A DNA stretch of 64,000 nt from Candidatus Manganitrophus noduliformans. GTDB taxonomy: Bacteria; Nitrospirota; Nitrospiria; SBBL01; Manganitrophaceae. The notes beneath the pieces were generated by a model. The model did no database searches, had not been told where the DNA came from, and saw nothing but the letters and a program-made list of their open reading frames with translations. The stretch spans positions 682,001 to 746,000 of the forward strand of contig NZ_VTOW01000002.1 of NCBI RefSeq assembly GCF_012184425.1, given 5' to 3'. A program made the position numbers and the translations under genes. Positions 4,796 to 57,246 of this stretch are shown piece by piece; position 1 is the first letter of the stretch, and every line of letters begins with the position of its first letter.

Positions 4796-6445
4796 ATGGC
4801 GACGATCATTCACCAAGAAGACAAACGGACAACGGATTCTCCCGGTATGGAATCGCTGGCAAGGCGGAGGGCCTATTCCCGCTCCAAAACGGCGCTCCCC
4901 TCTTTCTATCGGATCAAGCATTTTTCAAACCATCGTTCCGGGACGGCCATGCTGACCAATTGGAGCGTCGGCGGCGGGCGGATTGAAATGAGCCGGCCTT
5001 TGGAGGTCGGCACCTGGCTCGAGCTGGAATTGAAACCCGGATCGGCTTCCGACATGCCGATCCCCCCGATTCTTCGAAAGAAGCGACGGGTGCGCGCGCG
5101 GATCGTCCAAGAGGCGCCGCTCTTGTCCGACGTCGAAGCGCGAAATGGTTACGCATACGGCCTCGTCTTCGCCGTCGGCTGGAAAACGCTTTGTCGATAT
5201 CATTTTGAGCGCGCGCTTCCCTGGATCGCCCACCTCCTTTTCGCCGCCGGGATCTTTAATGTCCTCTACTTGAAGAGCTTTAATTTACACTACTTCTGGT
5301 ACGAACCGCTGATTAATCTTTACAGCCTCTTGATCTCTTTTTATATTCTCTCTCGATTCTTCCTCTCCTATTTTTACAAGCCGCCGAGGGATGCCGGGTA
5401 TTTGCCCCCCGTCACGGTGATCGTCGCTTGCAAAAACGAGGAGAACTCGATCGGCCGGACCCTCGATGCAATCTATCAATCCGATTATCCGCGTGACCGA
5501 ATGGAGGTCATCGCCGTGAACGACGGGTCCACCGACGGAACCGGCGGTGAGATGGAGCGGGCGAAGGAGCGCCATCCGGGACTCAAAATTATTCACTTCG
5601 ATAAAAACCTCGGCAAACGGCAAGGGATGGCCGCCGGGGCGCGGATGGCGACCGGGGAGATTTTGGTCTACATCGATTCCGATAGTTTTGTCAGAAGCGA
5701 GACCATCCGAAAGCTCGTTCAGGGATTTTCCGATCCGACCGTCGGCGCCGTTTGCGGACATGCCACCGTTCAGAACGCCCGGAAGAATCTTCTCACCAAA
5801 ATGCAAGAGGTCCGTTATTTTATCGCGTTCCGGGTGGTCAAGGCGGCGGAATCGGTCTTCTCCGCCGTGACCTGCTGCTCCGGCTGCCTGGCCGCCTACC
5901 GGCGCAAGCCGGTGATGGAGGTACTCGACACCTGGCTGAACCAGCGGTTTCTCGGAAGAGAGGCGACCTTCGGGGACGACCGCAGCCTGACCAACTTTAT
6001 GCTCCGGCGGTACCGGGTGATCTACCACTCCGAGGCGATCTGTACGACCCTGGTGCCGGAAACCTACCGCCAATTTTTTCGCCAGCAGCTCCGGTGGAAG
6101 AAGTCATGGATCCGGGAGAGTCTGCTTGCCGGCACTTTTATGTGGAAGCGGCATCCGATCGTCGCCTTCTTCTTTTATCTCGGGGTCCTCTTCCCGATCA
6201 TCTCCCCCCTCATCGCATTCGATAATCTGATCCTGCCGTTGATCGGATACGGAAGCCCCTCCCTTCTCTATATCTATGGCGCAACATTGATGGCCGCCGT
6301 CTATAGTCTCTACTATCTCGGCCGGTTCCGAACCGGGCTCTGGATCTACGGCATTTACTTCAGCTTCTTTTACATGTTCATCCTGGTCTGGCAAACCTAT
6401 TATGCCGTTTTGACCGTTCGGCGAAACCATTGGGGAACCCGATAA
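4796..6445 (+). CDS. PilZ domain fused to membrane family-2 glycosyltransferase (PgaC/hyaluronan-synthase-like)
   Basis: Predicted c-di-GMP-gated, membrane-embedded polysaccharide synthase, 549 residues. N-terminal PilZ domain (about 20-125) with both c-di-GMP motifs: RRxxxR at 24-29 and NxSxxG at 55-60 (NWSVGG). Two membrane segments follow (about 145-205). The GT2 domain (about 210-430) carries VIVACKNEE, the acceptor/metal motif YIDSDS, FGDDRSLT (the D-D catalytic region) and QQLRWKKSW (QxxRW, processive beta-glycan synthases). Three or four C-terminal membrane segments end the protein. The following deacetylase-like and barrel proteins suggest a poly-N-acetylglucosamine-like product. No PgaD-like partner gene is present; the fused PilZ domain may replace it. 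The next gene starts directly after the TAA. Confidence 0.9.
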   Translation: MATIIHQEDKRTTDSPGMESLARRRAYSRSKTALPSFYRIKHFSNHRSGTAMLTNWSVGGGRIEMSRPLEVGTWLELELKPGSASDMPIPPILRKKRRVRARIVQEAPLLSDVEARNGYAYGLVFAVGWKTLCRYHFERALPWIAHLLFAAGIFNVLYLKSFNLHYFWYEPLINLYSLLISFYILSRFFLSYFYKPPRDAGYLPPVTVIVACKNEENSIGRTLDAIYQSDYPRDRMEVIAVNDGSTDGTGGEMERAKERHPGLKIIHFDKNLGKRQGMAAGARMATGEILVYIDSDSFVRSETIRKLVQGFSDPTVGAVCGHATVQNARKNLLTKMQEVRYFIAFRVVKAAESVFSAVTCCSGCLAAYRRKPVMEVLDTWLNQRFLGREATFGDDRSLTNFMLRRYRVIYHSEAICTTLVPETYRQFFRQQLRWKKSWIRESLLAGTFMWKRHPIVAFFFYLGVLFPIISPLIAFDNLILPLIGYGSPSLLYIYGATLMAAVYSLYYLGRFRTGLWIYGIYFSFFYMFILVWQTYYAVLTVRRNHWGTR

Positions 6446-8353
6446 ATGAAGGAGCCGACCGATCCGTACGCTTCCATCTCCTTTCGCCAGGATCGCATTG
6501 CCTGGGGACTCTTATTTCTCCTCTCGTTTTTTCTCCTCGGCGGGGGATACCTCTGGCTTCATCGGGAGGTCGCGCCGCCCCCCGGGTTGCCGGCCGATTC
6601 CGACGACGACCCCCGCATCGCCGTCCTTGTTTACGATCATGTGACAAAAGCGAAAGGGGAGCATGTCGATCGGGAGCTCTTTCGGGAACATCTGGAGGCA
6701 TTGGAGCAACGCGGCTTCACCCCGATCACCCTCTCCGTATTGGCCGACTTTTACGAGCGGGGCCGGCCGCTTCCGCAGAACCCGCTGCTGCTCACCTTCG
6801 ATCACGGCTACCTCGACACCTATATGGCGGTCGACCCTGTCCTGCGCCGAAAAAAATGGCGCGCCGCAATGTTTGTCAAAACGGTCCGCCTGGAAAAGAG
6901 CGACACCTTCTTTCTCTACTGGGATCGGCTCCAAAGGATGGTCGACAGCGGCCTTTGGGAGATCGGATCAAACGGCCGGATCGGCAACGATCCGGCCCCG
7001 ATCGATCAGAGCGGCGAGGTCGGTCCTTTTTTAGCCCGGCGGATCTGGATGGAGAAAGAGGGCCGCCGGGAGACCGATTCCGAATTAAAAGATCGAATCC
7101 GGCAAGACTACCGATCGAGCAAGGAAGCGATCGAATCGAATCTCAGAGGGGTTCGTCCCGTTGCGTTTGCCGCGCCGTTTGGGGACTTCTCGAAAATTAC
7201 CGGCGATGCCGCCGTTGTTCACTTTAATCGGAACGCATCGGCTTCGCTCTACCCTCTCGGTTTCGTCGATGATCGATTCGGGGTCAACGACCGCTTCACC
7301 GATCCGCACGCCCTCAAGCGCCTTCGGGTCGATCCGGGCTGGTCCGGAGAGGAGTTGGTCCAACGGCTCACTTCCGCGATTGAATCGCTCCCCGACGGCG
7401 GCACTTTCGAGAACCCGCCGGTCCGATGGATCGCGGGCGAGGGGCGCATCTCTTCCGAAGGAGAAGCGCTCTTCTTGAAAGGCTTCCCTCGCACCGACCT
7501 CTGGCTTCCGGGAAGCGCCTGGACCGAAGAATGGGTGATGGAGGCCGATCTCTCGATCGAATCGGGCTCTTTCTGGCTGCTTCAGGAATCGGACTCGGGA
7601 GAGTCGTGGCGATGGGGAGGGGATCCGGCGGGCCTCTCGCTTCAACATCGGATGCCGGGGAAACCGTTGGAGACCCTCCGTCGGTTCGCCGCCGACGTGA
7701 CGCCGGGAAAACGGCATCATCTCAAGGTCATCAAACGAGGAAAAGGAATTTGGATCGAATGGGACCGCCGTCCCCTCACCGCGCACCCGGTCTATCTTCC
7801 CGGACCCTCGCGCGGGCCCCTCGGCTGGATCGGCTGGCGGACCGACGGGCCGGCGGCGCTGCAGATTTCAAACCTCCACCTCACCCGCTCTCCCGGCGAA
7901 ATCAGACCGGTAGGGGAGAACCCTTCACAAAAGGCGCTTGCCTCGCTCGTTAAGGAGGCCCCTCGGATCGCCGCCCTCTCCCCTCCCGGACTGGAGATGA
8001 CCGGGGATCGCCTGCACGAATTGCCTCTCGAATCGCAGCTCTTCAAAATCCTCTCGCATCGATACGGATGGGAGATCCTGCCGACGGTCCGGGTGTCTGC
8101 GAAGGGGAGAGAAATTCGGCGGATCAAGATGCCGGTTGACGACGGCGCATCCGTCCTCAGCGAGTCGACCCTGACCGAACTCCTCCACCGGGTTGAAAAG
8201 AAGGGATGGGGAGGAATTTATCTCGATCTCCGGCAACTCCCCCCCGCCACGCGCCAAAGCCTGCAACCGCTCCTCCGGCAATGGGGGTTTCTTTTCCAAA
8301 AAAGAGGACTGCGGCTCGCCTACGGCCCCGATGTATCGATCGATTCAAAATGA
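6446..8353 (+). CDS. PgaB-like polysaccharide deacetylase paralogue with degenerate metal site, plus LamG-like domain
   Basis: 635 residues. One N-terminal membrane anchor (about 18-38) places the rest in the periplasm. The deacetylase (CE4/PgaB-like) fold spans about 55-300. Motif 1 reads TFDHG (D119, H120) where the family has TFDD, and motif 2 reads SNGRIGN (N176, N181) where PgaB has H-x4-H. All three expected metal ligands (D, H, H) are therefore replaced, while spacing matches the intact paralogue in the next gene (56 residues between motifs in both). A beta-rich jelly-roll/LamG-like part follows (about 310-460). A C-terminal part (about 480-635) with GIYLDLRQLP may be a worn glycosidase-like barrel. 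I infer a binding or scaffold role in polymer handling rather than catalysis. The stop overlaps the next start (ATGA). Confidence 0.82.
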   Translation: MKEPTDPYASISFRQDRIAWGLLFLLSFFLLGGGYLWLHREVAPPPGLPADSDDDPRIAVLVYDHVTKAKGEHVDRELFREHLEALEQRGFTPITLSVLADFYERGRPLPQNPLLLTFDHGYLDTYMAVDPVLRRKKWRAAMFVKTVRLEKSDTFFLYWDRLQRMVDSGLWEIGSNGRIGNDPAPIDQSGEVGPFLARRIWMEKEGRRETDSELKDRIRQDYRSSKEAIESNLRGVRPVAFAAPFGDFSKITGDAAVVHFNRNASASLYPLGFVDDRFGVNDRFTDPHALKRLRVDPGWSGEELVQRLTSAIESLPDGGTFENPPVRWIAGEGRISSEGEALFLKGFPRTDLWLPGSAWTEEWVMEADLSIESGSFWLLQESDSGESWRWGGDPAGLSLQHRMPGKPLETLRRFAADVTPGKRHHLKVIKRGKGIWIEWDRRPLTAHPVYLPGPSRGPLGWIGWRTDGPAALQISNLHLTRSPGEIRPVGENPSQKALASLVKEAPRIAALSPPGLEMTGDRLHELPLESQLFKILSHRYGWEILPTVRVSAKGREIRRIKMPVDDGASVLSESTLTELLHRVEKKGWGGIYLDLRQLPPATRQSLQPLLRQWGFLFQKRGLRLAYGPDVSIDSK

Positions 8354-11300
8354 CGCCGATTTTTTTCTTTTTAGGAAACAGAGGGAAGGCCCGCTTGCGT
8401 GGGTCTCTTTATCCTGCGCTCTTAATCTTTGTCATCCTATTCGGAATCTCCCCCGCCTTTGGAAAATCACCCGGTCAAGATCTTCTCGATGAAGGGGTCT
8501 CCCTCTATCAAAAAGAGCGATACCAGGAAGCGTTGTCGCGCTTCAAGCGGGCCACCGAGCTCGATCCCGGACTTCTGAAGGGGTGGGAGAATATCGGGTG
8601 GGCCTATTACAAATTGGATCGGAAGGAGGAGGCGGTCCGGATCTGGGAAACCCTTCTCAAAATCGAGCCGGGGAATCTTCACCTGCTCAACGAAATCGGC
8701 TTTATTCACTTAAGCGGGGAGGCCTGGGAGAAGGCGGTCGTCTCTCTCCGGAAAAGCCTCCAAGTCGAACCGAACCAACCGAAGACGCGATTGCGATTGG
8801 GCGAGGCGTATCAGGCGTTGGGCCGATGGGAGAAGGCGGCACGGGAGTACGAAACGGCGCTGCGGCTCCGGCCGGGTGACCTGACGGCGATCCTACGGAG
8901 AATGGCCCTTTATGAGAAACGCGATCAGGAATTGGAGGCGATCGGCTTTCTGGAGGAGAAATTCTCTGAAACCTCCTCCCCGCTCTTGCGGTTTCACCTC
9001 GGACGCCTCCAGGCGCGGCGGGGAGATCGCGCCTATCGAAGCGGAGCCTACTCGGAGGCCGAAGCCGCCTATCAAACCGCCCTTCGGTGGGATCCGGACA
9101 ATCCCCAGTACCGGATCAACCTCGGCTGGACGAAACGGAAACAAGGGTCGACCGCGGCGGCGATTGCCGAATGGCGAGAAGCCCTCGACCGAGATCCCGA
9201 CCCAAGCCGCCTTTACCGCCCCTTGGCAGACGCCTATCTCGAACTCGGCGACAGGGCGGAGGCCCGCGCCTGGTACGAGCGGGGGTGGGGATCGGGGAGG
9301 CGGGAGCCTGAGGCGGCCTATCACCTCGCCGAAATCGCCTTTCAAGAGAATCAACGCGAGCGGGCGATCCAACGATTCAGCGATTTATCCACCCTTCCGG
9401 AGTGGGATGAAACTTGGGCGCTGCGCGTCGCAAACCTCTTCATCGCTTTGGATCAACCGGAGGAGGGGGTTTCCTTTTTCACTCAAAGAAAAACCGGGGA
9501 CCCAGGAAGGGGAAAAGCGCTCGGCCGGCTCTACGCTTATCAGGGTGGAAAGTCGTTTCGGGCCGGCGAGGTTGAGAGGGCGACACAACACTATCTTGCA
9601 GCACTCCAATTCGACAATCAGAATATGCAGGCGCTTCGGGACCTCGGCTGGTCCTACTGGAAGCAGGCGCAGTGGGACCGGTCCGAAGAGATTTGGAAAC
9701 GTTATCGCGCGGTTTATCCGGACCGTCCGGAACCGTATAATCTTCTTACGCAGATCTATCTGTACAAACGGGACTATCGCACCGCGATCGATTCAATCGA
9801 AGCAAGTTTAGCCCTCTCCCCCGATCAGCCGGATGAAAGGCTGAAGCGGGCCAAGGCTCGTTTCTGGGACGGCCGGTTCGACACGGGGAGACGGGAGGCC
9901 GAACAGCTGGCAACCCTCTATCCCGACCATCTCCCGATCCAGACCTTCTGGGGGGAGCTTCTGATGCAACACCACGATTTCAAACGGGGGAAGGAGCAAT
10001 GGCGAAAGGTGCTCGACCTCGGCTCGGTCTCTCCCAAGGCGGAGTATTTCTGGCTTCGGTCGATGTATGAATCGGGCGAATATGAGAAAGCGGTCGCCGA
10101 GGCGAAAAAGCGGGCCGGTGAGCATCCCCCGAAGCAGGCCATTCTTCGATTCTTGGCGGAAGATGCCCTCTTTCGGGAAGATAAAGAAGAGGCGGTTCGA
10201 TGGTATCGCCTCCTGACGGAAGCGTTCCCTCAACACCCTTCTTTTTGGCTGGAGCGCTCCCGGCTCTACCAGGAGATGAACCTTTTTCCGGAAAGCCTGA
10301 AAACATTGGAGCAGGCGCGGCAGGCCCACCCCGATCATCTTGAAATTCGCCTCTCCCTGACCGAGGCCGAGCGGCTCAACGGTAAATACGACGCGGCCGA
10401 GCGGCGCTACATCGAGCTGACCGAGGAATATCCCGACAACCGCCGCGCCTACATCGGCCTGCTCCAGACCCGGATCGAGGCGCGGCGCTTCAGGGAAGCG
10501 TTGGCCCTCCTGGAGCAGAACCGGAGCGCCTTCCTCAAGGGGTATGAGGTCGATCTGCAGCGGGGGGCGATCTACGCCGGGATGGGAGCCCCCGGCGACG
10601 CCGAATCGTCTTTCATGCGGGTCGCTTCGCCCGCCGAGACAACCCGCTATATTCCGATCCTCCTATATCACGGGTTGAGCGATCATCCGAGGAGCATGAA
10701 TCTTTCGGTCGATCTCTTCGACGCGCAGTTGCAGGCCCTTGGGGCCGCCGGTTATCAAACGATCACGATTCGGGAGCTCGGACGGATGGTCGACGGAAAA
10801 GAACCTTTCCCCCCCAAACCGATTTTGATCACCTTCGACGACGCCCGGATCGACGCGTTTCTCCTCGGCGACCCGATTCTGGCCAAACATGGGATGAAGG
10901 CGACGATGTTCGTTCCGACGGCGAAGATCACCGATCAAAACCCCTTTTTCGCCGATTGGGAGATGATCCGAAAATACGCCGGGACCGGACGGTGGGACCT
11001 GCAGAGCCACGGCGATCACGCCCACGATCTGATCCCGATCGACGCCGCCGAACAGATCGGCGGCTTCCTCGTCAACCGGCTCTGGATCAAAGAGCAGGAG
11101 CGGCTGGAGACCCGAGAGGAATATCTGCAGCGACTGGAGATCGATTATCGGCAAAGCCGCCGTTTGCTCGACCGGGAGGTCGCCGGACTCGATCTGATCG
11201 GCTATGCGTTCCCCTTCTCCGAGGCGGGACAGGAGAATATCGGGAACGAGCCGCGCGCCGCCGAATTTAACGAACAGCTGCTGGCGAAATATTTCCGGTT

Positions 11301-12528
11301 CGGGTTTGTCCAGGATCAAAACGGATATAACGCGATCGAGCCGGGCCCCGCTCCTGCCGGCCGGATGCTCCGCCGCTTCTCCGTTCCCCGCTCCTGGGAT
11401 GGGAAAAAACTTCTTGCGCATCTGACCGCCCAGCATCCCGGCCTCGCGGCCACGATCCGAATCGGCCAATCCTATTATTGGAGCGGGCGGTATGATACGG
11501 CGCGCGCGCTTTTCGAACGGCTTCCGGCCGAAGCGCCCTTGCTCAAAGGGGACAGCGCCTATTATCTGGCGGCCCTTTCCTATCAGCAGGGACGATATCG
11601 AGAAGCCGCGCGGCACTTTAGCCTCTCTCTCGCCGAAGGCTCGGAGCGGGCCGGGAATAGCGCCTCGCTGTTGAGGCAGATCGCGTGGCAAAATCAAGCT
11701 CAGACCGGAATCCGGTTCGGCCTCTTTCACGATTCCAACGACCGCAGCAACCGCTGGCAATCGCTCCTCTTTCGATACCCGCTCGCCCACCCGATCGACC
11801 TGTCGTTCGAGATCGGCCGGATCTCCTTTCGAGAAAACGGTTTCTCCCCGTTATCCGGCCAGGAATTGCGTGTCGGGGCGCGCTGGCAGACCTCGGCGCA
11901 GATTCTTTTGGAAGGGAGCGTTCGCGCGCGTTTCTTGGAGGGGGGAGACGATACCGGAAATTTATGGCTGACGGGGAAATATCAGGCCGACCATCAAGAA
12001 ATTCACCTCCGATGGGCGTATGAAGATGTGGAAACCCTTCAAGCGCATCGGATCGGTCTTCAGACACGGAACGGCGGATTTCGTTACCGCCTCCGGTTGA
12101 CATCGCAGTGGCGCGGCGACGTCGATTTTTTATACCGCTCTTATGAAGATGGAAACGAGCGGACCGACTTCCGAACGGGCCTCTCTTATCAGCTCCTTGC
12201 CTGGCCGGGGTGGCGGGTCGGCGCCGCGTTCACGCGGAGCGACACCCGCTTCCAATCGGACCGGTATTATACCCCGGCCGGGTTGAACGTCGGCCGCGCG
12301 ACCCTTTCCTATCGAAAGGCCTGGGATTCGGGAACGCTTCTGGAAGGAGAGGGGGGGATCGGCCTCGCCGAGGACACGCTGCGCGGAACCCGCTGGGTGG
12401 GATATGGCGAGATCAAATCGGTTCAGGCCTGGACCGACCAGATCCGATCGAGCCTCGCCTGGGACTACAACCGCTCGCCGGGCTACCGTAGTTGGACGGT
12501 GGAGGCGATGGCCCACTATCGGTTCTGA
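8350..12528 (+). CDS. TPR - polysaccharide deacetylase - outer-membrane beta-barrel fusion (PgaB + PgaA-like)
   Basis: 1392 residues from the ATG at 8350, coupled by ATGA overlap to the previous gene. A hydrophobic signal segment (about 18-38) is followed by some 18 tetratricopeptide repeats (about 38-755). A PgaB-type deacetylase domain (about 765-1050) has intact residues: TFDD (D830, D831) and H-x4-H in SHGDHAHD (H887, H892), matching the base plus metal ligands described for PgaB. Two more TPR-like helices (about 1060-1110) precede a C-terminal beta-barrel of about 280 residues with alternating aromatic/polar strands and a terminal Phe (AMAHYRF), as in PgaA porins. In E. coli, PgaA (TPR+porin) and PgaB (deacetylase) are separate proteins; here both functions seem joined in one chain spanning periplasm and outer membrane. 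Partner synthase at 4796. Confidence 0.88.
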   Translation: MTPIFFFLGNRGKARLRGSLYPALLIFVILFGISPAFGKSPGQDLLDEGVSLYQKERYQEALSRFKRATELDPGLLKGWENIGWAYYKLDRKEEAVRIWETLLKIEPGNLHLLNEIGFIHLSGEAWEKAVVSLRKSLQVEPNQPKTRLRLGEAYQALGRWEKAAREYETALRLRPGDLTAILRRMALYEKRDQELEAIGFLEEKFSETSSPLLRFHLGRLQARRGDRAYRSGAYSEAEAAYQTALRWDPDNPQYRINLGWTKRKQGSTAAAIAEWREALDRDPDPSRLYRPLADAYLELGDRAEARAWYERGWGSGRREPEAAYHLAEIAFQENQRERAIQRFSDLSTLPEWDETWALRVANLFIALDQPEEGVSFFTQRKTGDPGRGKALGRLYAYQGGKSFRAGEVERATQHYLAALQFDNQNMQALRDLGWSYWKQAQWDRSEEIWKRYRAVYPDRPEPYNLLTQIYLYKRDYRTAIDSIEASLALSPDQPDERLKRAKARFWDGRFDTGRREAEQLATLYPDHLPIQTFWGELLMQHHDFKRGKEQWRKVLDLGSVSPKAEYFWLRSMYESGEYEKAVAEAKKRAGEHPPKQAILRFLAEDALFREDKEEAVRWYRLLTEAFPQHPSFWLERSRLYQEMNLFPESLKTLEQARQAHPDHLEIRLSLTEAERLNGKYDAAERRYIELTEEYPDNRRAYIGLLQTRIEARRFREALALLEQNRSAFLKGYEVDLQRGAIYAGMGAPGDAESSFMRVASPAETTRYIPILLYHGLSDHPRSMNLSVDLFDAQLQALGAAGYQTITIRELGRMVDGKEPFPPKPILITFDDARIDAFLLGDPILAKHGMKATMFVPTAKITDQNPFFADWEMIRKYAGTGRWDLQSHGDHAHDLIPIDAAEQIGGFLVNRLWIKEQERLETREEYLQRLEIDYRQSRRLLDREVAGLDLIGYAFPFSEAGQENIGNEPRAAEFNEQLLAKYFRFGFVQDQNGYNAIEPGPAPAGRMLRRFSVPRSWDGKKLLAHLTAQHPGLAATIRIGQSYYWSGRYDTARALFERLPAEAPLLKGDSAYYLAALSYQQGRYREAARHFSLSLAEGSERAGNSASLLRQIAWQNQAQTGIRFGLFHDSNDRSNRWQSLLFRYPLAHPIDLSFEIGRISFRENGFSPLSGQELRVGARWQTSAQILLEGSVRARFLEGGDDTGNLWLTGKYQADHQEIHLRWAYEDVETLQAHRIGLQTRNGGFRYRLRLTSQWRGDVDFLYRSYEDGNERTDFRTGLSYQLLAWPGWRVGAAFTRSDTRFQSDRYYTPAGLNVGRATLSYRKAWDSGTLLEGEGGIGLAEDTLRGTRWVGYGEIKSVQAWTDQIRSSLAWDYNRSPGYRSWTVEAMAHYRF

Positions 12529-12554
12529 CGAAAGCGCCCCGTCTCGGGATGGCC

Positions 12555-13622
12555 TCAACGGCCGGTTTTCCGGCCGCTTCGTTCGGCCAGGCGCGGAAGA
12601 AATTCCGGATCTTGCCTTCCCAGGCTCCAGAAGACGACATTCCGGTAGCCAAACGACTCCAAGGCGGCGATCTTCTCCATCAAACTCTCGGCATCTTCAT
12701 AATAGACCGTGTGGCGGCCTCCTGCGTCGGTGTAGATGAAATAAGGAACGTTTCCGTTCGGATCACGCAGGATCTCCGCTCGATGGGCCTCGGCGAGAGA
12801 AGCGGCGCGATCATATTGAACCCCCTCCGCGTGCTCCCCTCCCCATTTCATCCCGCTGACCTTGAGAATCGGGACCACCCGCTCGCGAGGGCATTGGCTC
12901 TCGGCAAACTGAAGGATCTCTTTGATCCAGGCAGGGGTGGCGATCGGGCCGGGGCCGCTTTTTCCGCTGTGAAGATTGTAAAGCATGATCTGCAATCGAT
13001 CGGCCGATCGGCAGAGGTCGGCCCAGTCGGCGGCGCCGGGCCCGTCGGCGCGGCTCTCCCGCGCCTTCGGTTGAACGGTGACCGATAAGAGAATCCCCTT
13101 CTGCTTTAAATCGGCCGCCAGCTCACGGATAAACAGGCTAAAAAGATCCCGATCGACCGCCCGAAGATTTTCATAGTCGATATCGACCCCGGCAAAGCCG
13201 TGCGTCGCCGCGAGCCTGACGATCTCGCTTCGGTGCTGCCGGCGACGATCCGGATCGCTCAGGAGATCGTGGATGACCTGCGGGTCTTTCAAGATGACCG
13301 CTCCCCCCGCAGACGGTTTGACGTCGTTCACGACCGTCAGCCAGGGAAGCGCGTTGCCCTCCTTGACCCGTCCCGCTTCCAGATTGAACGGAATGTTCTT
13401 GTTGGCGAAAACCGGAGCACCTTCCGAATCGAGGTGGGCGGCGAAGAAATAGATGTCGTTGAGGAGCGACGGCGCGCTCCGAACTGAATCGATTCCTCGG
13501 TTGTAATCCCAATAAGTCACCCAGGCGCCGAGCCGCGCCGGCTTCGCTCCGCCGGACGCACAGGCAGCCAGGAAGAGCGGGAGGATAAAAAGAGACATAC
13601 GGAAGCGCCGTCCTAGCAACAT
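12555..13622 (-). CDS. GH18-like glycoside hydrolase lipoprotein
   Basis: 355-residue exported lipoprotein with lipobox LAAC near residue 20 (FILPLFLAACASGG). The barrel has the GH18 (chitinase/endo-beta-N-acetylglucosaminidase) active-site strand GFAGVDIDYENL: the DxDxE core is intact, but the first Asp of DxxDxDxE is Ala. Further GH18-like strands are LLSVTVQPK, LQIMLYN and VVFWSLGRQDP. Start ATG at 13622 with AAGG nine bases upstream; ATG 13598 (MSLFILP) is an alternative. It converges on the exopolysaccharide operon with a 26-bp gap. A role in trimming that polymer is attractive but only inferred; peptidoglycan or spore-type GH18 relatives are possible. Confidence 0.8.
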   Translation of the reverse strand: MLLGRRFRMSLFILPLFLAACASGGAKPARLGAWVTYWDYNRGIDSVRSAPSLLNDIYFFAAHLDSEGAPVFANKNIPFNLEAGRVKEGNALPWLTVVNDVKPSAGGAVILKDPQVIHDLLSDPDRRRQHRSEIVRLAATHGFAGVDIDYENLRAVDRDLFSLFIRELAADLKQKGILLSVTVQPKARESRADGPGAADWADLCRSADRLQIMLYNLHSGKSGPGPIATPAWIKEILQFAESQCPRERVVPILKVSGMKWGGEHAEGVQYDRAASLAEAHRAEILRDPNGNVPYFIYTDAGGRHTVYYEDAESLMEKIAALESFGYRNVVFWSLGRQDPEFLPRLAERSGRKTGR

Positions 13623-13649
13623 CGCAAAATACCTTGTTGAGTGTAGCGG

Positions 13650-13667
13650 CCGCGCGTTCACGCGCGG
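13650..13667. repeat. Intergenic palindrome CCGCGCGT-TC-ACGCGCGG
   Basis: Perfect 8-bp arms with a 2-nt loop lie in the GTAG(C)GGC...-type setting also seen in the palindromes at 22059 and 48908. It sits 28 bp upstream of the GH18 gene start and does not look like a terminator. Confidence 0.45.
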
Positions 13668-13776
13668 TCGAAAGGGAGGAAATCTTTGAACGATGTAAAA
13701 ATTTGGATTTTCTATTTTGAATTGAAACAGATTAAATCTCAAAAATCTAGACCTGGCCCTTTTCCCCAGCATGCTT

Positions 13777-18831: not shown

Positions 18832-19242
18832 CTACCATTCATTATAAGAAGTCCCGTTGGTCCCGATGATATCGCTGCCGGAGTGGACGTCATAAATTCC
18901 GGATTCATCCCCTTCGGAGACAAAAATTTCGACCCAGCTATCGGTGGTTCCTGTGAAAGGATCGACCGGAATGGCCCGCAGGTATCCTTTTTCGACGAGG
19001 TCGGGGAGGGCGGCGGGATAGCTCCCCTGATCGGCGTGGTACTGATCGATGACATCGCGCATGACATAGAGATCTTTCTTGAGCGCCGCCTCTTTGGCCT
19101 TGATTGTGGCGATGCGATAAGACGGCTCGGCGAGGGTGACGAGGATGCCGACGATCGCCACCACGACCATCAATTCGATGAGGGTAAATCCCTTCTCCCC
19201 CCCCCGCCTTATTTTCTGAAATAGTCGATGAACCCGCTTCAC
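18832..19242 (-). CDS. gspG: Type II secretion major pseudopilin-like protein (GspG family)
   Basis: Pseudopilin processed by prepilin peptidase: the cleavage motif G|FTLIELMVVVAIVGIL has the required Glu+5 and a hydrophobic helix. The C-terminal part holds the GspG-type pattern VIDQYHADQGSYP and DIIGTNGTSYNEW, whose relatives bind calcium. I prefer the GTG at 19242, preceded by AAGGGG at good spacing and giving an 18-residue leader; ATG 19278 would give a 30-residue leader with a ribosome-binding site too close. 136 residues. Probable partner of gspF/gspE at the window start, although 16 kb away. Confidence 0.88.
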   Translation of the reverse strand: MKRVHRLFQKIRRGGEKGFTLIELMVVVAIVGILVTLAEPSYRIATIKAKEAALKKDLYVMRDVIDQYHADQGSYPAALPDLVEKGYLRAIPVDPFTGTTDSWVEIFVSEGDESGIYDVHSGSDIIGTNGTSYNEW

Positions 19243-19299
19243 AATTCCCCTTGTTCCTTTTATCCCTTGATTCCTCATTCCTAATTTTCAGATTCCTAA

Positions 19300-26935: not shown

Positions 26936-27010
26936 TGGCTGGGGCGCCAGGGATCGAACCTGGGCTGCGAGATCCAAAATCTCGTGACCTGCCAGCTAGT
27001 CGACGCCCCA
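26936..27010 (-). tRNA. tRNA-Gln (anticodon TTG)
   Basis: 75 nt on the minus strand with CCA encoded. The acceptor stem TGGGGCG pairs with CGCCCCA, and the discriminator is G. The anticodon stem CGAGA/TCTCG encloses the loop TTTTGGA (anticodon TTG). The T-arm is CAGGTTCGATCCCTG. Lies between ispE and prs, 11 bp after the ispE stop. Confidence 0.96.
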
Positions 27011-27996: not shown

Positions 27997-29433
27997 CTAC
28001 GCAAGGGGATCGTCGGCGTTGTCGTCAGCATCGTCTTCGAGGTCCGGATCGACCTCCCCGTTTTTCAGCTTCTTGATGCCGTATTTATCGAGCCGGTAAC
28101 GGAAAGAGCGGAAGTTGAGGTGAAGGAGCTTGGCCGCCTCTTTCTTGACCCAGTTTGTCTCTTGAAGGGCCTTCAGAAGAAGCTCCTTTTCAATCTTTCC
28201 GATCAGATCTTCCAAATGGAGCCCGTCTTCGGGGATGGCGGCCGGAATCGGAAAGCTCCCCTCCGGTTTAAGAAAGCCTTGGTTAAAATCGGCCAGGGTC
28301 AGCATTTTATGGGAGGCCAGCGCGACGGCGCGCTCGACCACGTTCTCGAGCTCTCGCACATTTCCCTTCCATTCGTGGTTCATCAAGACACGCATCGCCT
28401 CCGGTTCAATCCCCTCGATTTCTTTTCCGAGGCTCTGATTGAATTTGCGCAGAAAAAAATCGGCCAGCAAAGGGATATCTTCCGGCCGCTCCCGCAAGGG
28501 AGGAAGGTCGATCGGGATCACGTCTAAACGGTAGTAGAGATCCTCGCGGAATTTCCCCTCCGCCACCATCTTCTCCAGATCGCGATTGGTCGCCGCGATG
28601 ATCCGCACATCGACCTTCAAATCTTTTGTTCCGCCTACGCGGCGAAATTCTTTCTCCTGGAGGACCCTCAAGAGCTTGACCTGGATCGATAGAGAGGTCT
28701 CCCCGATTTCATCGAGGAAAATGCTCCCTTCGTGGGCGATCTCAAAAAGCCCTTCTTTGTTTCCGATCGCTCCCGTGAAAGAGCCTTTCATGTGGCCGAA
28801 GAGCTCGCTTTCCAGCAGCGCTTCCGGAAGCGCGCTGCAGTTGACGGTGACGAAGGATCGATCGCGCCTCGCGCTGTTGAAATGAATCGCCCGCGCGATC
28901 AGCTCCTTCCCCGTTCCCGATTCTCCATAGATCAAGACGTTGCTCTTGCTGTCGGCCACCTTCCGGACCAGATCGAGCACCCGCTTCATCTTCTCGCTTC
29001 TTCCGATAATCTGGGTGAAGGTCGCCTGGCCCTTCAGCTCGCGGCGAAGCTGAGTATTCTCCTGGCGCAGCTTCCTCCGCTCCAGGGCATTCTTGATGAT
29101 TAGCTTGACCTCGTCGATCTGAAACGGTTTGGTCAAATAATCATAGGCCCCCTCTTTCATCGCTTCGACGGCCGTCTCCGCCGAGGCATAGGCGGTCATC
29201 ATGATCACGATCGTCTCGGGAGAAAGCTCCTTCAGCCCCTTTAAGAGATCGAGGCCGCTCATCCGGGGCATCTTCATGTCGGTCAGGACCAGGTCGTAGA
29301 TGTCTTTCTCCAACACCTTCAGGGCCCGGTCGCCGTCTTCCGCCGTTTCGACGAAATAGCCCTCTTTCTTAAGGACAATCGACAGGAAGTCCCGCATGCT
29401 TTTTTCATTGTCAACGACCAGTACTTTCTCCAT
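27997..29433 (-). CDS. pilR: NtrC-type sigma-54 response regulator PilR
   Basis: 478 residues. Receiver domain (1-120) with phosphoacceptor D52 (LVLTDMKMPRMSG). AAA+ domain (about 140-375) with Walker A GESGTGKE, the sigma-54 contact loop ELFGHMKGSFTGA (GSFTGA, a tolerated variant of GAFTGA), Walker B GSIFLDEIGE and the arginine finger region PLRERPEDIP. Fis-type HTH (about 420-465: EAAKLLHLNFRSFRYRLDKYGI). The acidic tail is unusual (EVDPDLEDDADDNADD). Paired with pilS 9 bp upstream; expected to control pilin transcription. Confidence 0.93.
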   Translation of the reverse strand: MEKVLVVDNEKSMRDFLSIVLKKEGYFVETAEDGDRALKVLEKDIYDLVLTDMKMPRMSGLDLLKGLKELSPETIVIMMTAYASAETAVEAMKEGAYDYLTKPFQIDEVKLIIKNALERRKLRQENTQLRRELKGQATFTQIIGRSEKMKRVLDLVRKVADSKSNVLIYGESGTGKELIARAIHFNSARRDRSFVTVNCSALPEALLESELFGHMKGSFTGAIGNKEGLFEIAHEGSIFLDEIGETSLSIQVKLLRVLQEKEFRRVGGTKDLKVDVRIIAATNRDLEKMVAEGKFREDLYYRLDVIPIDLPPLRERPEDIPLLADFFLRKFNQSLGKEIEGIEPEAMRVLMNHEWKGNVRELENVVERAVALASHKMLTLADFNQGFLKPEGSFPIPAAIPEDGLHLEDLIGKIEKELLLKALQETNWVKKEAAKLLHLNFRSFRYRLDKYGIKKLKNGEVDPDLEDDADDNADDPLA

Positions 29434-29442
29434 CTCTCTTTC

Positions 29443-31194
29443 CTATACCGATAACGACTTCAACCGGTTCTCTGTAGATTGAAAAAGATCGGACGGACGA
29501 TCGGCCGCCGGAGAGCGCTCCGGACGGGAATCTTCGATATCCAGCCGTTCGCTCCTTGTCAACTCATCCAGCGGAAGGGTGATAAAAAAGGTGGTTCCCT
29601 TGGAAGAGCTCTCGACGCGAATTTCTCCCGCATGTTCTTCGATGATCCGCTGGACGATCGACAGACCCAAACCCGATCCGGAGCTTTTTGTCGTGAAGAA
29701 GGGATAAAAGATTTTCGGGAGATCTCCCTTTTGAATCCCCCCTCCCGTGTCGGCGAAAAGGACCTCGATCCGCTCGTCGGAGACCACCGCTCCTTTCCCT
29801 TTTTTAGGACGGCTCCGCCGCGTCGAAATCGTCAGCACCCCTTCTTCCGGCATCGCTTGAAAGGCATTGATCGAGAGATTCCAGAAAACCTGCCGGATCT
29901 GGTCGGGATCGATCAGAATCATCTGCGGCTCCGACGGAATCAGCAGGGAAACCTTGATCCGATCGTGATACTCCGGATGATTCTGAAGAAGCTGGACCGT
30001 TTCCGATAAAAGCGCGTGGAGATCGGTCCGCCTTCGCCGCGGCGGCAGCGGCTTCGCGTAAAGAAGAAATTGCGTGATAATCGAGTTGAGCCGGTCCGCT
30101 TCTCTGACGGCGATCTCCATCAACTTAAGATGTTCATCGCGGAGGTTGAGGTCGCCTTTGAGCACCTCGATCGAACCGCTGAGGGAGGCGAGCGGGTTTC
30201 GGATCTCATGGGCCATTCCGGCCGCCATCTCTCCGATGGTCGCCAGACGCTCCTTCTTTTGCATCTCTTCTTCGAGGCTTTTTAGCTGGGTCAAATCCTG
30301 GAACGTCCCGATAATTCCGATTTGCCCCCCGTGCTCGTTCCGAAGGGGCGAGATCGTCACGCCGAGCAGGCAGCGCTCTCCCTGCTTCGTAGAAATCTCT
30401 CCGTCGAATCGCTGCGGAACGCCGGTAATCGCAAGATCTCGGTAGCGGTCCCGAATCTCCCCCCAGGAGAAGAGCTCCCACCAGATCGATCCGACCGCCT
30501 CTTCCGCCCGAAAACCGGTCATTTCGGAGGCCGACCGGTTAAACGAGGTGATCTTTCCGGAAAGATCGGTCGTCACGAGACCGCTCGAGATACTCTCCAC
30601 GATGTCTTCCGTGAAAACGCGCAGCTTTGAAAACCCGACCTCTTTCTCATGCAATCGCTCCGAGAGCCTTCCGCTGAGGCTGCCGACGGTAAAGAAGGTG
30701 ATCATATAAAGAAAGAGCATATAAAACACCTCTTTCTCGCCGAGCAGACTGGGGGAATTGAAAGGAGGAACGTGGGCATATTGTAGATTCACGACGGTGC
30801 CGAATAAAAACGTCGCCGCGGCCGCGGTCAGCACCCCCCCCTTGCGGTGGAAGAAGATGCAGGCCGAAACGATCGTAATGACGTAAAGAAAAGAAAAGGG
30901 GCTCTGAATCCCTCCTGTCACTACGATCAGGGCCGTTTCGAACAAAAGGTCGATCCCCAACTGAACGGAGACGAAAAAGAGGGGATACCGCGTCCGCGAA
31001 ATGAAGAGGGCATAAACAAGGGTGAGGAAATAGGTCGACCCGATCAGGAAATAAAAGGTGGTGATCGACCATGGGTTTTTGAGGTAATTGAGCTGCAGCA
31101 GAAGTGGGATACCGAGAAGGGAGGTCACCAGGAAGATCCGGAGGGCCATCAGCCACTTGATCCTCCCCAGAATGATCTCGTCTTCTCTTTTCAT
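29443..31194 (-). CDS. pilS: PilS-type membrane sensor histidine kinase
   Basis: 583 residues. Six hydrophobic segments (about 14-185) as in PilS, then a PAS domain (about 200-310, ITSFNRSASEMTGF), HisKA with phospho-His H329 (GMAHEIRNPLASL), and HATPase_c with the N box (FWNLSINAFQAM), ADTGGGI and GSGLGLSIVQRI. Together with PilR it forms a two-component system, by analogy sensing pilin in the membrane. Confidence 0.93.
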   Translation of the reverse strand: MKREDEIILGRIKWLMALRIFLVTSLLGIPLLLQLNYLKNPWSITTFYFLIGSTYFLTLVYALFISRTRYPLFFVSVQLGIDLLFETALIVVTGGIQSPFSFLYVITIVSACIFFHRKGGVLTAAAATFLFGTVVNLQYAHVPPFNSPSLLGEKEVFYMLFLYMITFFTVGSLSGRLSERLHEKEVGFSKLRVFTEDIVESISSGLVTTDLSGKITSFNRSASEMTGFRAEEAVGSIWWELFSWGEIRDRYRDLAITGVPQRFDGEISTKQGERCLLGVTISPLRNEHGGQIGIIGTFQDLTQLKSLEEEMQKKERLATIGEMAAGMAHEIRNPLASLSGSIEVLKGDLNLRDEHLKLMEIAVREADRLNSIITQFLLYAKPLPPRRRRTDLHALLSETVQLLQNHPEYHDRIKVSLLIPSEPQMILIDPDQIRQVFWNLSINAFQAMPEEGVLTISTRRSRPKKGKGAVVSDERIEVLFADTGGGIQKGDLPKIFYPFFTTKSSGSGLGLSIVQRIIEEHAGEIRVESSSKGTTFFITLPLDELTRSERLDIEDSRPERSPAADRPSDLFQSTENRLKSLSV

Positions 31195-54649: not shown

Positions 54650-57124
54650 TCACTGTCCCAAAAGAACTGAGACCGAGTTTCCGCTGCGATTTACCACGAC
54701 GAGATCGAGTTTGGAGTTCGCATTCGGATCATCCGGGTCGTACGGATCATTCGGCGGATCATCATCAAAATAACCTGTGGCGGCGGCGACCGGATTTTTT
54801 CCTTCTCCGAGAATCTCCTCTCGGGAAGGCCCAAAGGTCCCATCTCCGACCCCCAGATAGATCGTAACTGATTCGGTATTGTCTTGGGTATTGCCCGTGG
54901 GATGGAAATTCGGAATGATCAGATCCGGTTTTCTATCCCGGTTAAAGTCCCCCACCGCAATCCCTTGGGGCTCCAATCCAACCGGGAAGCGGGTCGGCGC
55001 TGCAAAACCGCCGGCACCGTCATTCAAGAAGATCGAGACCGTTCCGCTCTCGCGATTCACCACTGCCAGATCGAGAATCCCATCTTCATTGAAGTCTTCC
55101 GATGCCAAGGCGACCGGCCGATGGAATGCGTCACTTCCGACCGAAAAAGAGGTCGGAGCCTCGAAACTCCCGGCCCCATCCCCCAACAGAAGAGAGATGG
55201 TATTAATCAGTTCATTCGTTACGACCAAGTCGAGGTGAGTGTCTCCATTAAAATCTCCTGAAGCGATTCCAGAGGGGCTGACACCCGCTGCGAAGAGCGT
55301 TTTTGAAGCGAATCCACCTACGCCGTCTCCAATGAGGATAACCACATTTCCAACCCCACTCATCACAGATGAAACGGCCACATCCGGATTTCCGTCTTCA
55401 TTGAAATCGGCAACAAGCAGGTCAGAAGGAAAAGTCTTTCCGCTATCGGCCGGGTTCGTCCAGAGATCGATAGAGGCGGGGGTAAAAATCCCATTCCCAT
55501 TATTCGAAAGGAGGGTCATTGTACCACTGGTGCCATTCGATACGACGAGATCGGCCGGGTTTAGGTTTCCATGGAATTTTCCAGCGGCAAGATGTTCTGG
55601 ATTGTTTCCGACATCATATACAGGGATCGAGACAGTATCAAAACCAAAATTATCCTCATCCTCGGGATCGGCCCAATTTCCAATGCCAAACAGGATTGAG
55701 ACTTTGTGGGTTCCAAAGTTAGTAGTAGCCAGATCCGATATTGAATCTCCATCAAAATCGGCGATCGCAACGTCGCTCGGACTTTCTTCTGGCTCCACAG
55801 AAAACTCGTTCGGTTCGCCGAGAAAGGGAAGGATAAAGCTCTGATCCGCCCCGTAGTTCGTTCCTCTGCTGTTCGTCGCCACGATGCGGTAGTGGTAGGG
55901 TCTGTTTGGCTCCAGAGCTTCTAGGCCGTCCGCGATCGGCACAAAAGTATTCCCACCCGGTGTGGTCTGCAGCGCCGTGCTGCTGCCGTAGGCCGTCGTC
56001 ACCCCCCATTCAAAATAAACCGTCGTTTCTCCCGAGAATCCAAGCGGGTTCACCTCCCCATGTAAGATCGCCGAGCCGGTCTTTAACACCTCGCTCGGGG
56101 GCAAGGTCACCACCGCCGGGGGCGGGATCGGAATCGGCGTCGCCGAGGCTTCCTCGGACGGAAGGCTTTCCCCGTGGGCATTCTCCGCTGTCAGAATGTA
56201 ATAGTAGAGGGTGTTGTTCGTGAGGGCGGTGTGGGTATAGCTGGTGCCGGAGAGATTGGGAATCTTCGTTCCGTTGTCCGGGGTGACCTCCGCCGTCGTG
56301 CTCCAGTAGACGTTGTAAAATTGCGCCCCGGCGGCGGCATTCCAGTTGAGGATCACCTCACTGTCCGCCGCGGAGGCGGTCAAGTTCGTCGGTTGCACCG
56401 GAACCGTCTCCGCCGCAAAAGGGGTCGCCGAAACCTCTGCCGATTCGGCACCCTGCCCGAGGTTGTTTTGGGCGGTGACGACGAAAAAGTAGGTCGTGCC
56501 GTTGGTCAGGTCGTCCTCGATATAGACAGTGGCGCCTCCCGGCACCTGGGTCCGATTTCCGCCGACAATGGTGTTCCAATTATCTCGGTTGATCCCGGAG
56601 ACGGTCGCCCTGTAGAGGAAATAACTCGAGGCGCCGGTGACGGAGTTCCATTCCAGGGTGACCTGACCGTCCGCGGCGATCGCTCTTAATCCGGTGGGAG
56701 GAAGAGGAAGCGCGGTCGACGTCGGCGTGGCGGAGACCTCGGCCGATTCGGCGCTCTCCCCCGCCTCATTCACCGCCGTAACGACAAAATAATAGGGTGT
56801 CCCGTCGAGTAGATCGCTCTGCGTGAAAGGACCGGCGGCCGCGGGATTCCGCTTCCCGAAAGGGAGGGTCTCGTAATTCGTTTTCGTCACCCCGGGGCCG
56901 GCCGCCACGTAGACATTGTAAGAGGTCGCCCCGTCGACCGGGTCCCATCCGATGACAACCGCTCCGCTGAACGCAGTGACGGCGACCCCGGTCGGCGCGG
57001 CGGGAGGACGTCCCCCCCGATGCCGGCCCCCTCCCCGCCCGCAGGCGTGAAGAGACAAGGCGATGACGAGAAAAAAAATCCCTGCTCCCCGTAAGGAGAG
57101 AGGGCTTAACTTGATCCGGTTCAT
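54650..57124 (-). CDS. Large lipoprotein with fibronectin-III and FG-GAP/VCBS repeats
   Basis: 824 residues. Lipoprotein signal (VIALSLHACGRGG). Three FN3 domains (about 40-330; each with YNVYV/SYFLYR-type strands and YYFVVTAVNEAGESAES linkers), a fourth FN3-like unit (about 345-430, TVYFEWGVTTAYGSS), then about six FG-GAP/VCBS repeats (about 440-824: DFDGDSISDLATTN, DFNEDGNPDVAVSS, DFNGDTHLDLVVTN, DFNRDRKPDLIIPN) with calcium-binding DxDxD loops. Surface-exposed, maybe adhesive. ATG 57124 chosen because the likely promoter leaves earlier starts untranscribed. Confidence 0.88.
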   Translation of the reverse strand: MNRIKLSPLSLRGAGIFFLVIALSLHACGRGGGRHRGGRPPAAPTGVAVTAFSGAVVIGWDPVDGATSYNVYVAAGPGVTKTNYETLPFGKRNPAAAGPFTQSDLLDGTPYYFVVTAVNEAGESAESAEVSATPTSTALPLPPTGLRAIAADGQVTLEWNSVTGASSYFLYRATVSGINRDNWNTIVGGNRTQVPGGATVYIEDDLTNGTTYFFVVTAQNNLGQGAESAEVSATPFAAETVPVQPTNLTASAADSEVILNWNAAAGAQFYNVYWSTTAEVTPDNGTKIPNLSGTSYTHTALTNNTLYYYILTAENAHGESLPSEEASATPIPIPPPAVVTLPPSEVLKTGSAILHGEVNPLGFSGETTVYFEWGVTTAYGSSTALQTTPGGNTFVPIADGLEALEPNRPYHYRIVATNSRGTNYGADQSFILPFLGEPNEFSVEPEESPSDVAIADFDGDSISDLATTNFGTHKVSILFGIGNWADPEDEDNFGFDTVSIPVYDVGNNPEHLAAGKFHGNLNPADLVVSNGTSGTMTLLSNNGNGIFTPASIDLWTNPADSGKTFPSDLLVADFNEDGNPDVAVSSVMSGVGNVVILIGDGVGGFASKTLFAAGVSPSGIASGDFNGDTHLDLVVTNELINTISLLLGDGAGSFEAPTSFSVGSDAFHRPVALASEDFNEDGILDLAVVNRESGTVSIFLNDGAGGFAAPTRFPVGLEPQGIAVGDFNRDRKPDLIIPNFHPTGNTQDNTESVTIYLGVGDGTFGPSREEILGEGKNPVAAATGYFDDDPPNDPYDPDDPNANSKLDLVVVNRSGNSVSVLLGQ

Positions 57125-57154
57125 GGGTTTCCCACATGTTTCATACTCCATTTG

Positions 57155-57183
57155 AGTGTAACAGTCGATCCCCCTTTTGACAA
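57155..57183 (-). promoter_or_regulatory. Sigma-70-like promoter for the FN3 lipoprotein gene
   Basis: Minus strand TTGTCA (57183-57178), 17-bp spacer, TACACT (57160-57155), about 30 bp before ATG 57124. Confidence 0.5.
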
Positions 57184-57217
57184 GAAAACGGCCGTTCCGT
57201 CGTGCCATGTCTGATCC

Positions 57218-57246
57218 TTGACGTGTCCCGGCCAATCCTCTATAAT
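57218..57246 (+). promoter_or_regulatory. Sigma-70 promoter for lysS
   Basis: TTGACG (57218-57223), 17-bp spacer, TATAAT (57241-57246), 77 bp before the lysS ATG. Nearly consensus. Confidence 0.75.

Follow-up and report, generated by a model that had tools for sequence, protein, structure and literature searches.

We analysed a 64,000-nucleotide stretch of the Candidatus Manganitrophus noduliformans genome (contig NZ_VTOW01000002.1, positions 682,001 to 746,000; hereafter the window, in whose coordinates features are given) and describe here a predicted exopolysaccharide synthesis and export operon of three genes, with a fourth gene beside it. Gene 1 (4796..6445, plus strand) encodes a 549-residue protein with a PilZ-like N-terminus and a GT2 synthase domain (motifs DSD, GDDR, QQLRWKKSW and C-terminal HWGTR). 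Gene 2 (6446..8353, plus strand) encodes 635 residues with a transmembrane helix, a dead CE4 domain, a CBM66/laminin-G-like sandwich and a likely GH18-like remnant, and gene 3 (8350..12528, plus strand) encodes 1392 residues in which a signal peptide, a tetratricopeptide repeat (TPR) superhelix, a CE4 deacetylase, further TPR and a 16-strand barrel follow one another. The open reading frames (ORFs) of all three genes are intact in the window, the TAA stop of gene 1 abuts the ATG of gene 2, and genes 2 and 3 share an ATGA overlap, which bears out the original prediction from this sequence that the three genes are joined end to end. The same prediction counted three genes and missed a conserved fourth, a GH18 lipoprotein gene next door on the minus strand (12555..13598, start codon approximate), which adjoins the operon and carries a lipobox (LAAC) and the catalytic motif DIDYE. 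An Rfam scan finds no known structured RNA upstream of the operon, its sole match being a tRNA at 26939-27010, and promoter and terminator scans are at about chance level.

Gene 3 joins an exporter and a deacetylase in one chain. Its N-terminal TPR superhelix (8470..10644, plus strand; Pfam TPR matches and model) is followed by the CE4 domain (10645..11433, plus strand), a helical TPR-like stretch (11437..11694, plus strand; Pfam TPR around residues 1037-1089 and model helices) and the 16-strand outer-membrane barrel (11701..12525, plus strand), which is assigned from the model, from Foldseek and from Pfam matches in orthologues. An AlphaFold model of residues 640-1392, built on 11 orthologues (pLDDT 88, pTM 0.84), contains TPR helices, an alpha/beta deacetylase at about 766-1028, helices at 1030-1115 and 16 transmembrane-type strands at 1118-1391. 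The top PDB match of this model in Foldseek is the PgaA barrel 4Y25 (E 8.5e-13, TM 0.73 by target), and other matches are the PgaB-type deacetylases 4U10, 4F9D and 3VUS, as well as BcsC and PelB. The Pfam PgaA_barrel profile matches 4 of the 11 orthologous barrels (best 1.4e-8) and leaves the window protein unmatched; by model and Foldseek, gene 3 has the TPR plus 16-strand barrel of a PgaA. The TPR/deacetylase/barrel fusion proposed from the sequence is real by Pfam (TPR and CE4), by the model, which has both the deacetylase fold and the 16 barrel strands, and by the Foldseek matches to PgaA and PgaB. An assembly artefact as the origin of the fusion is rejected, because the fusion recurs in independent assemblies of several phyla (about eight).

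The CE4 domain of gene 3 has the metal ligands Asp-His-His and the catalytic Asp of its family (D830, D831, H887 and H892). H774, D830, D831 and H887 are kept in 11 of 11 sequences and H892 in 10 of 11; many of the loci were found with a TFDDAR pattern, so that the Asp pair is not independent evidence, and the His residues are. In the tree, the CE4 domains of gene 3 cluster together, separate from gene 2 and PgaB (92/89), indicating that the split between the two CE4 types predates the spread of the locus. On the best reading, the gene 3 CE4 domain is the predicted working deacetylase of the system, placed in an outer-membrane-proximal scaffold.

Gene 2 was expected to be PgaB-like, and this holds for its fold and not for its active site. 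Pfam assigns a CE4 domain (3e-14), and the AlphaFold model (pLDDT 79) contains one transmembrane helix, a PgaB-type CE4 fold, a CBM66-like sandwich (7430..7888, plus strand; Foldseek to 4B1M/4AZZ) and a small alpha/beta tail. In the degenerate CE4 domain (6614..7390, plus strand), whose fold matches PgaB 3VUS/4U10, D64, H120, N176 and N181 stand against H55, D115, H184 and H189 of PgaB, and the Asp-His-His metal-ligand set is missing. The second Asp of TFDD is replaced in every lineage aligned (by H, R, T, N, Y, S or P), the H55-equivalent position is lost in all of them, and the metal His is lost in most. Because active-site residues are lost across lineages, gene 2 is read as a membrane-anchored, conserved pseudo-deacetylase. 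A profile search finds no PgaB hydrolase domain (GHL13) in gene 2, and a working PgaB is rejected here on both grounds, the lost active site and the missing hydrolase domain. The protein likely carries a GH18-like remnant, for which the profile evidence is weak (hmmsearch E 7e-4 to a solved GH18; hhalign probability 19%).

Gene 1 is a GT2 protein by Pfam (2e-30), and the PilZ motifs RxxxR and [D/N]xSxxG are both present in its first 135 residues (R25xxxR29 and N55xSxxG60; PilZ-like domain at 4853..5200, plus strand, approximate limits), in agreement with the PilZ-GT2 synthase that had been proposed. The Pfam PilZ profile matches 3 of 9 gene 1 orthologues (best 1.9e-8) and a Paenibacillus relative. 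Gene 1 is probably regulated by cyclic di-GMP (c-di-GMP) through its own PilZ-like domain, and this domain could replace PgaD, whose absence from the operon was also foretold: no PgaD ORF is found at 4796-13772. The closest solved relatives of gene 1 are hyaluronan synthases (HAS; 2e-33), with an alignment that extends through the C-terminal WGTR. Gene 1 shares the motifs DSD, GDDR, QQxRWKKS and WGTR with HAS, and NodC is close except for WGTR, whereas PgaC has DGD, TED, QRLRWAQGG and WxSPDRG, which gene 1 lacks. The best NCBIfam model for gene 1 is NodC (190 bits, equivalog cut-off 550), and PgaC_IcaA scores lower (152 bits, cut-off 422); both scores are below cut-off, and with the NodC cut-off missed, gene 1 is on this evidence not NodC itself. 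In the tree, the gene 1 family, NodC and HAS are on one side and PgaC is on the other (100/98), a split to be read with caution given its long branches. By its sequence, gene 1 is a synthase of the HAS/NodC type and not of the PgaC type.

The GH18 lipoprotein matches its Pfam family at 4e-21 and has the DxDxE catalytic motif, with DxDYEN retained in the first four orthologues (4/4). Orthologues of the locus were sought among relatives in the genus, order and class, in a scan of 85,000 species genomes, whose records are metagenome bins, so that a taxon label could be wrong here and there, and in a survey of 396 Nitrospirota genomes. Ten loci have all four genes (the window, L014, L015, L016, L020, L021, L022, L024, L027 and L043), while L017-L019 duplicate the contigs of G002, G028 and G011 and were counted once. 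Orthologous loci are present in four further Nitrospirota genomes and in several other phyla, which indicates that the locus does not result from chance and shows the three-gene order recurring in other genomes. The taxa are Nitrospirota (including Candidatus Manganitrophaceae, with the window's congener G002), Nitrospinaceae, Gammaproteobacteria, Desulfobacterales, Acidobacteria and Omnitrophota, with partial loci in Planctomycetota and Elusimicrobia. Lentisphaerae have a TPR-CE4 relative without a barrel match, and one Lentisphaerae contig (L028:6654-16796) holds three neighbouring TPR/CE4-type proteins (813, 1117 and 1346 residues), relatives of genes 2 and 3 in which no barrel is matched. 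A Paenibacillus plasmid (L029) carries, side by side, a PilZ-GT2 (44% over the GT core), a pseudo-deacetylase of the gene 2 type (hidden Markov model match, 1.6e-41) and a GH18; a barrel is absent, as expected because Paenibacillus is monoderm. A UDP-glucose/GDP-mannose dehydrogenase-type gene (L029:5965-7209) lies beside this PilZ-GT2, is missing from the gene table of the plasmid, and may point to a uronic sugar in the polymer of this relative. In G303, two further genes separate the operon from the GH18 (L043:9593-12469), one resembling polysaccharide deacetylases and one for another secreted protein. A Sphingobium plasmid (L035:1850-5149) encodes a 1099-residue protein with CE4 and GT2 in one chain, followed by VirJ-like and lysyl-phosphatidylglycerol synthase-like genes.

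The window genome (G000) also holds a full canonical pgaABCD at G000:C2, about 210.1-216.3 kb, with Pfam matches to PgaA_barrel (4e-71), PgaB CE4 plus GHL13 (1e-141), GT2 (PgaC) and PgaD (1e-39). Its PgaB has both domains of the family, the active CE4 and GHL13, which gene 2 does not, and the PgaD of the genome sits in this operon. Since this genome also has canonical pgaABCD, the new locus is a second system, and replacement of pga here is rejected, the canonical operon being intact. The original prediction that three genes do the work of pgaABCD stands insofar as three joined genes hold the steps of synthesis, deacetylation and outer-membrane export; as a rebuilt pga of this genome it falls, given the canonical operon elsewhere and a synthase that is HAS/NodC-like and not PgaC-like. 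A PgaB match that reaches the hydrolase domain occurs in only 2 of 12 locus-bearing genomes (G000 and one Desulfobacterales genome), indicating that the new system does not depend on pga and is found in its presence as well as in its absence. The canonical operon (L005, G000:C2:204000-222000, minus strand 6124-12310) is flanked by glycyl-tRNA synthetase-type genes downstream and by a RecO-like gene and sensor kinases upstream.

We consider it likely that the locus encodes a distinct four-protein, synthase-dependent exopolysaccharide system, with probable c-di-GMP control and a partly deacetylated polymer that contains N-acetylglucosamine (GlcNAc) and is possibly beta-1,4-linked. The basis is the gene order, the domains, the predicted folds, the active-site residues present or lost and the co-conservation of the genes, from which we infer the polymer identity, the c-di-GMP control, an escort role of gene 2 and the function of the GH18. 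In the proposed mechanism, c-di-GMP binding to the PilZ-like domain would switch on the inner-membrane GT2 of gene 1, which would polymerise and extrude a GlcNAc-containing chain, perhaps beta-1,4-linked. The inner-membrane-anchored gene 2 protein, with its dead deacetylase and carbohydrate-binding-like sandwich, would probably hold or escort the nascent chain, which would then pass along the TPR superhelix of gene 3, be partly de-N-acetylated by the gene 3 CE4 on this scaffold just before the outer membrane, and exit by way of the 16-strand barrel attached to it. The GH18 lipoprotein would trim or clear the chain, a task that in Pga falls to the hydrolase domain of PgaB. The CE4 and GH18 families both act on GlcNAc-based sugars, and a GlcNAc-based polymer is therefore most likely; the synthase type favours a predicted beta-1,4 linkage. 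With more reserve, and as a possibility that falls short of probable, the locus may represent a further class of synthase-dependent secretion, sparsely distributed among numerous phyla, most of them uncultured. Gram-negative bacteria with such a system would make and export a polymer of the chitin/chitosan type (beta-1,4-GlcN/GlcNAc), c-di-GMP would control the process directly, the deacetylase would sit in the export scaffold, and a pseudo-deacetylase would escort the polymer.

Several observations weigh against the four-protein system. The window gene 1 protein is itself unmatched by the Pfam PilZ profile (sub-threshold), and the G028 orthologue lacks the PilZ domain. The GT2 identities of gene 1 to NodC, HAS and PgaC are all low (23-32%), and, together with the long tree branches, they make the linkage unreadable from sequence. 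The polymer is a predicted one and none has been seen, and the locus is rare even in Nitrospirota, where the survey finds it in 4 of 396 genomes, the window's own included. The GH18 is convergent with the operon, on the opposite strand, in most loci, and its closest solved relatives are YdhD and YaaH, so it may be a peptidoglycan or spore-type hydrolase. Were it an unrelated cell-wall hydrolase, convergent by chance and about 3 kb distant in G303, the system would have three parts only. We regard this as unlikely, because the gene adjoins the operon in genomes of several phyla, shares the orientation of the operon in Desulfobacterales (L022) and Paenibacillus, and has a counterpart in the likely GH18-like remnant within gene 2 itself.

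The nature of the polymer admits two other explanations. The locus could be a re-packed Pga that makes poly-N-acetylglucosamine (PNAG, beta-1,6-GlcNAc) and replaces pgaABCD, consistent with the PgaA/PgaB-like fold and sequence of the exporter barrel and deacetylase and with the lack of a full-length PgaB in most other locus-bearing genomes. The canonical operon in the same genome, the HAS/NodC synthase motifs in place of those of PgaC, and the lost active site and missing hydrolase domain of gene 2 make this improbable. Less probable still is a hyaluronan or uronic-acid heteropolymer, in which the HAS-like synthase would combine UDP-GlcNAc with UDP-GlcA or a different uronic sugar, leaving the GlcNAc units as substrate for the deacetylase. 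Hyaluronan synthase is the best solved relative of gene 1 and a UDP-sugar dehydrogenase-type gene adjoins the Paenibacillus relative, but in the window the locus has no sugar-nucleotide dehydrogenase next to it, the best NCBIfam model (NodC) is a GlcNAc homopolymer synthase, and the CE4 and GH18 partners suit a GlcNAc polymer.

Elsewhere in the window, type IV pilus-type genes (1097-2308, 18832-19278 and 27997-31194, all minus strand) encode a T2SSF/PilC protein, a pilin-like protein and a PilS/PilR-type two-component pair, and an 861-residue protein with fibronectin type III and FG-GAP repeats (54650-57235, minus strand) is probably surface or secreted.

In the open-access papers searched, we found neither a fusion of deacetylase and porin nor this set of four genes described. 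The locus breaks the usual pairing, its synthase being of the HAS/NodC type and its exporter and deacetylase of the Pga type, and, if the polymer is beta-1,4-linked, it would be a bacterial route to secreted chitosan. The fusion supports the idea, so far drawn from E. coli pull-downs, that deacetylation takes place on an outer-membrane-proximal TPR scaffold, and gene 3, as a single chain, provides a construct with which this step could be studied structurally; the conserved dead deacetylase makes a non-catalytic role of such domains testable. The locus shares with PgaABCD/HmsHFRS, the PNAG system, a TPR plus 16-strand barrel exporter, a PgaB-like CE4, a GT2 synthase and likely c-di-GMP control. 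It differs in the deacetylase fused into the exporter, the extra dead CE4 protein, the HAS/NodC-type synthase, the absence of PgaD and a separate GH18 where Pga has the GHL13 hydrolase domain in PgaB. In E. coli, PgaB docks on PgaA, whereas gene 3 holds the same two modules in one chain, ordered alike with respect to the pore. With the NodC, hyaluronan synthase and chitin synthase group, gene 1 has in common DSD, GDDR or GEDR, QQxRWx[KR]S and, as in HAS, the C-terminal WGTR, but its PilZ-like N-terminus, its outer-membrane export operon and an identity of only 28-32% set it apart. The NodB-NodC chitooligosaccharide pair likewise places a CE4 deacetylase beside a HAS/NodC-type GT2, and the new locus adds a dedicated outer-membrane exporter, a pseudo-deacetylase and a GH18. 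Divergent pgaB clades, in which a GT is fused to the deacetylase, pgaA and pgaD are missing and no exporter was detected (PMC7112194), are also re-packed deacetylase/synthase loci without PgaD, but here it is the exporter, not the GT, that is fused to the deacetylase. BcsC and PelB resemble gene 3 in joining a long TPR superhelix and a 16-strand barrel in one chain (Foldseek 9B8A, 6TZK and 9H80) and have no enzyme domain within it. A precedent for a periplasmic enzyme fused to an outer-membrane pore is BcsZC of cellulose operons, a hydrolase fused to the pore (PMC7112194); there the enzyme is a cellulase of a cellulose system, whereas in gene 3 it is a deacetylase placed between TPRs.

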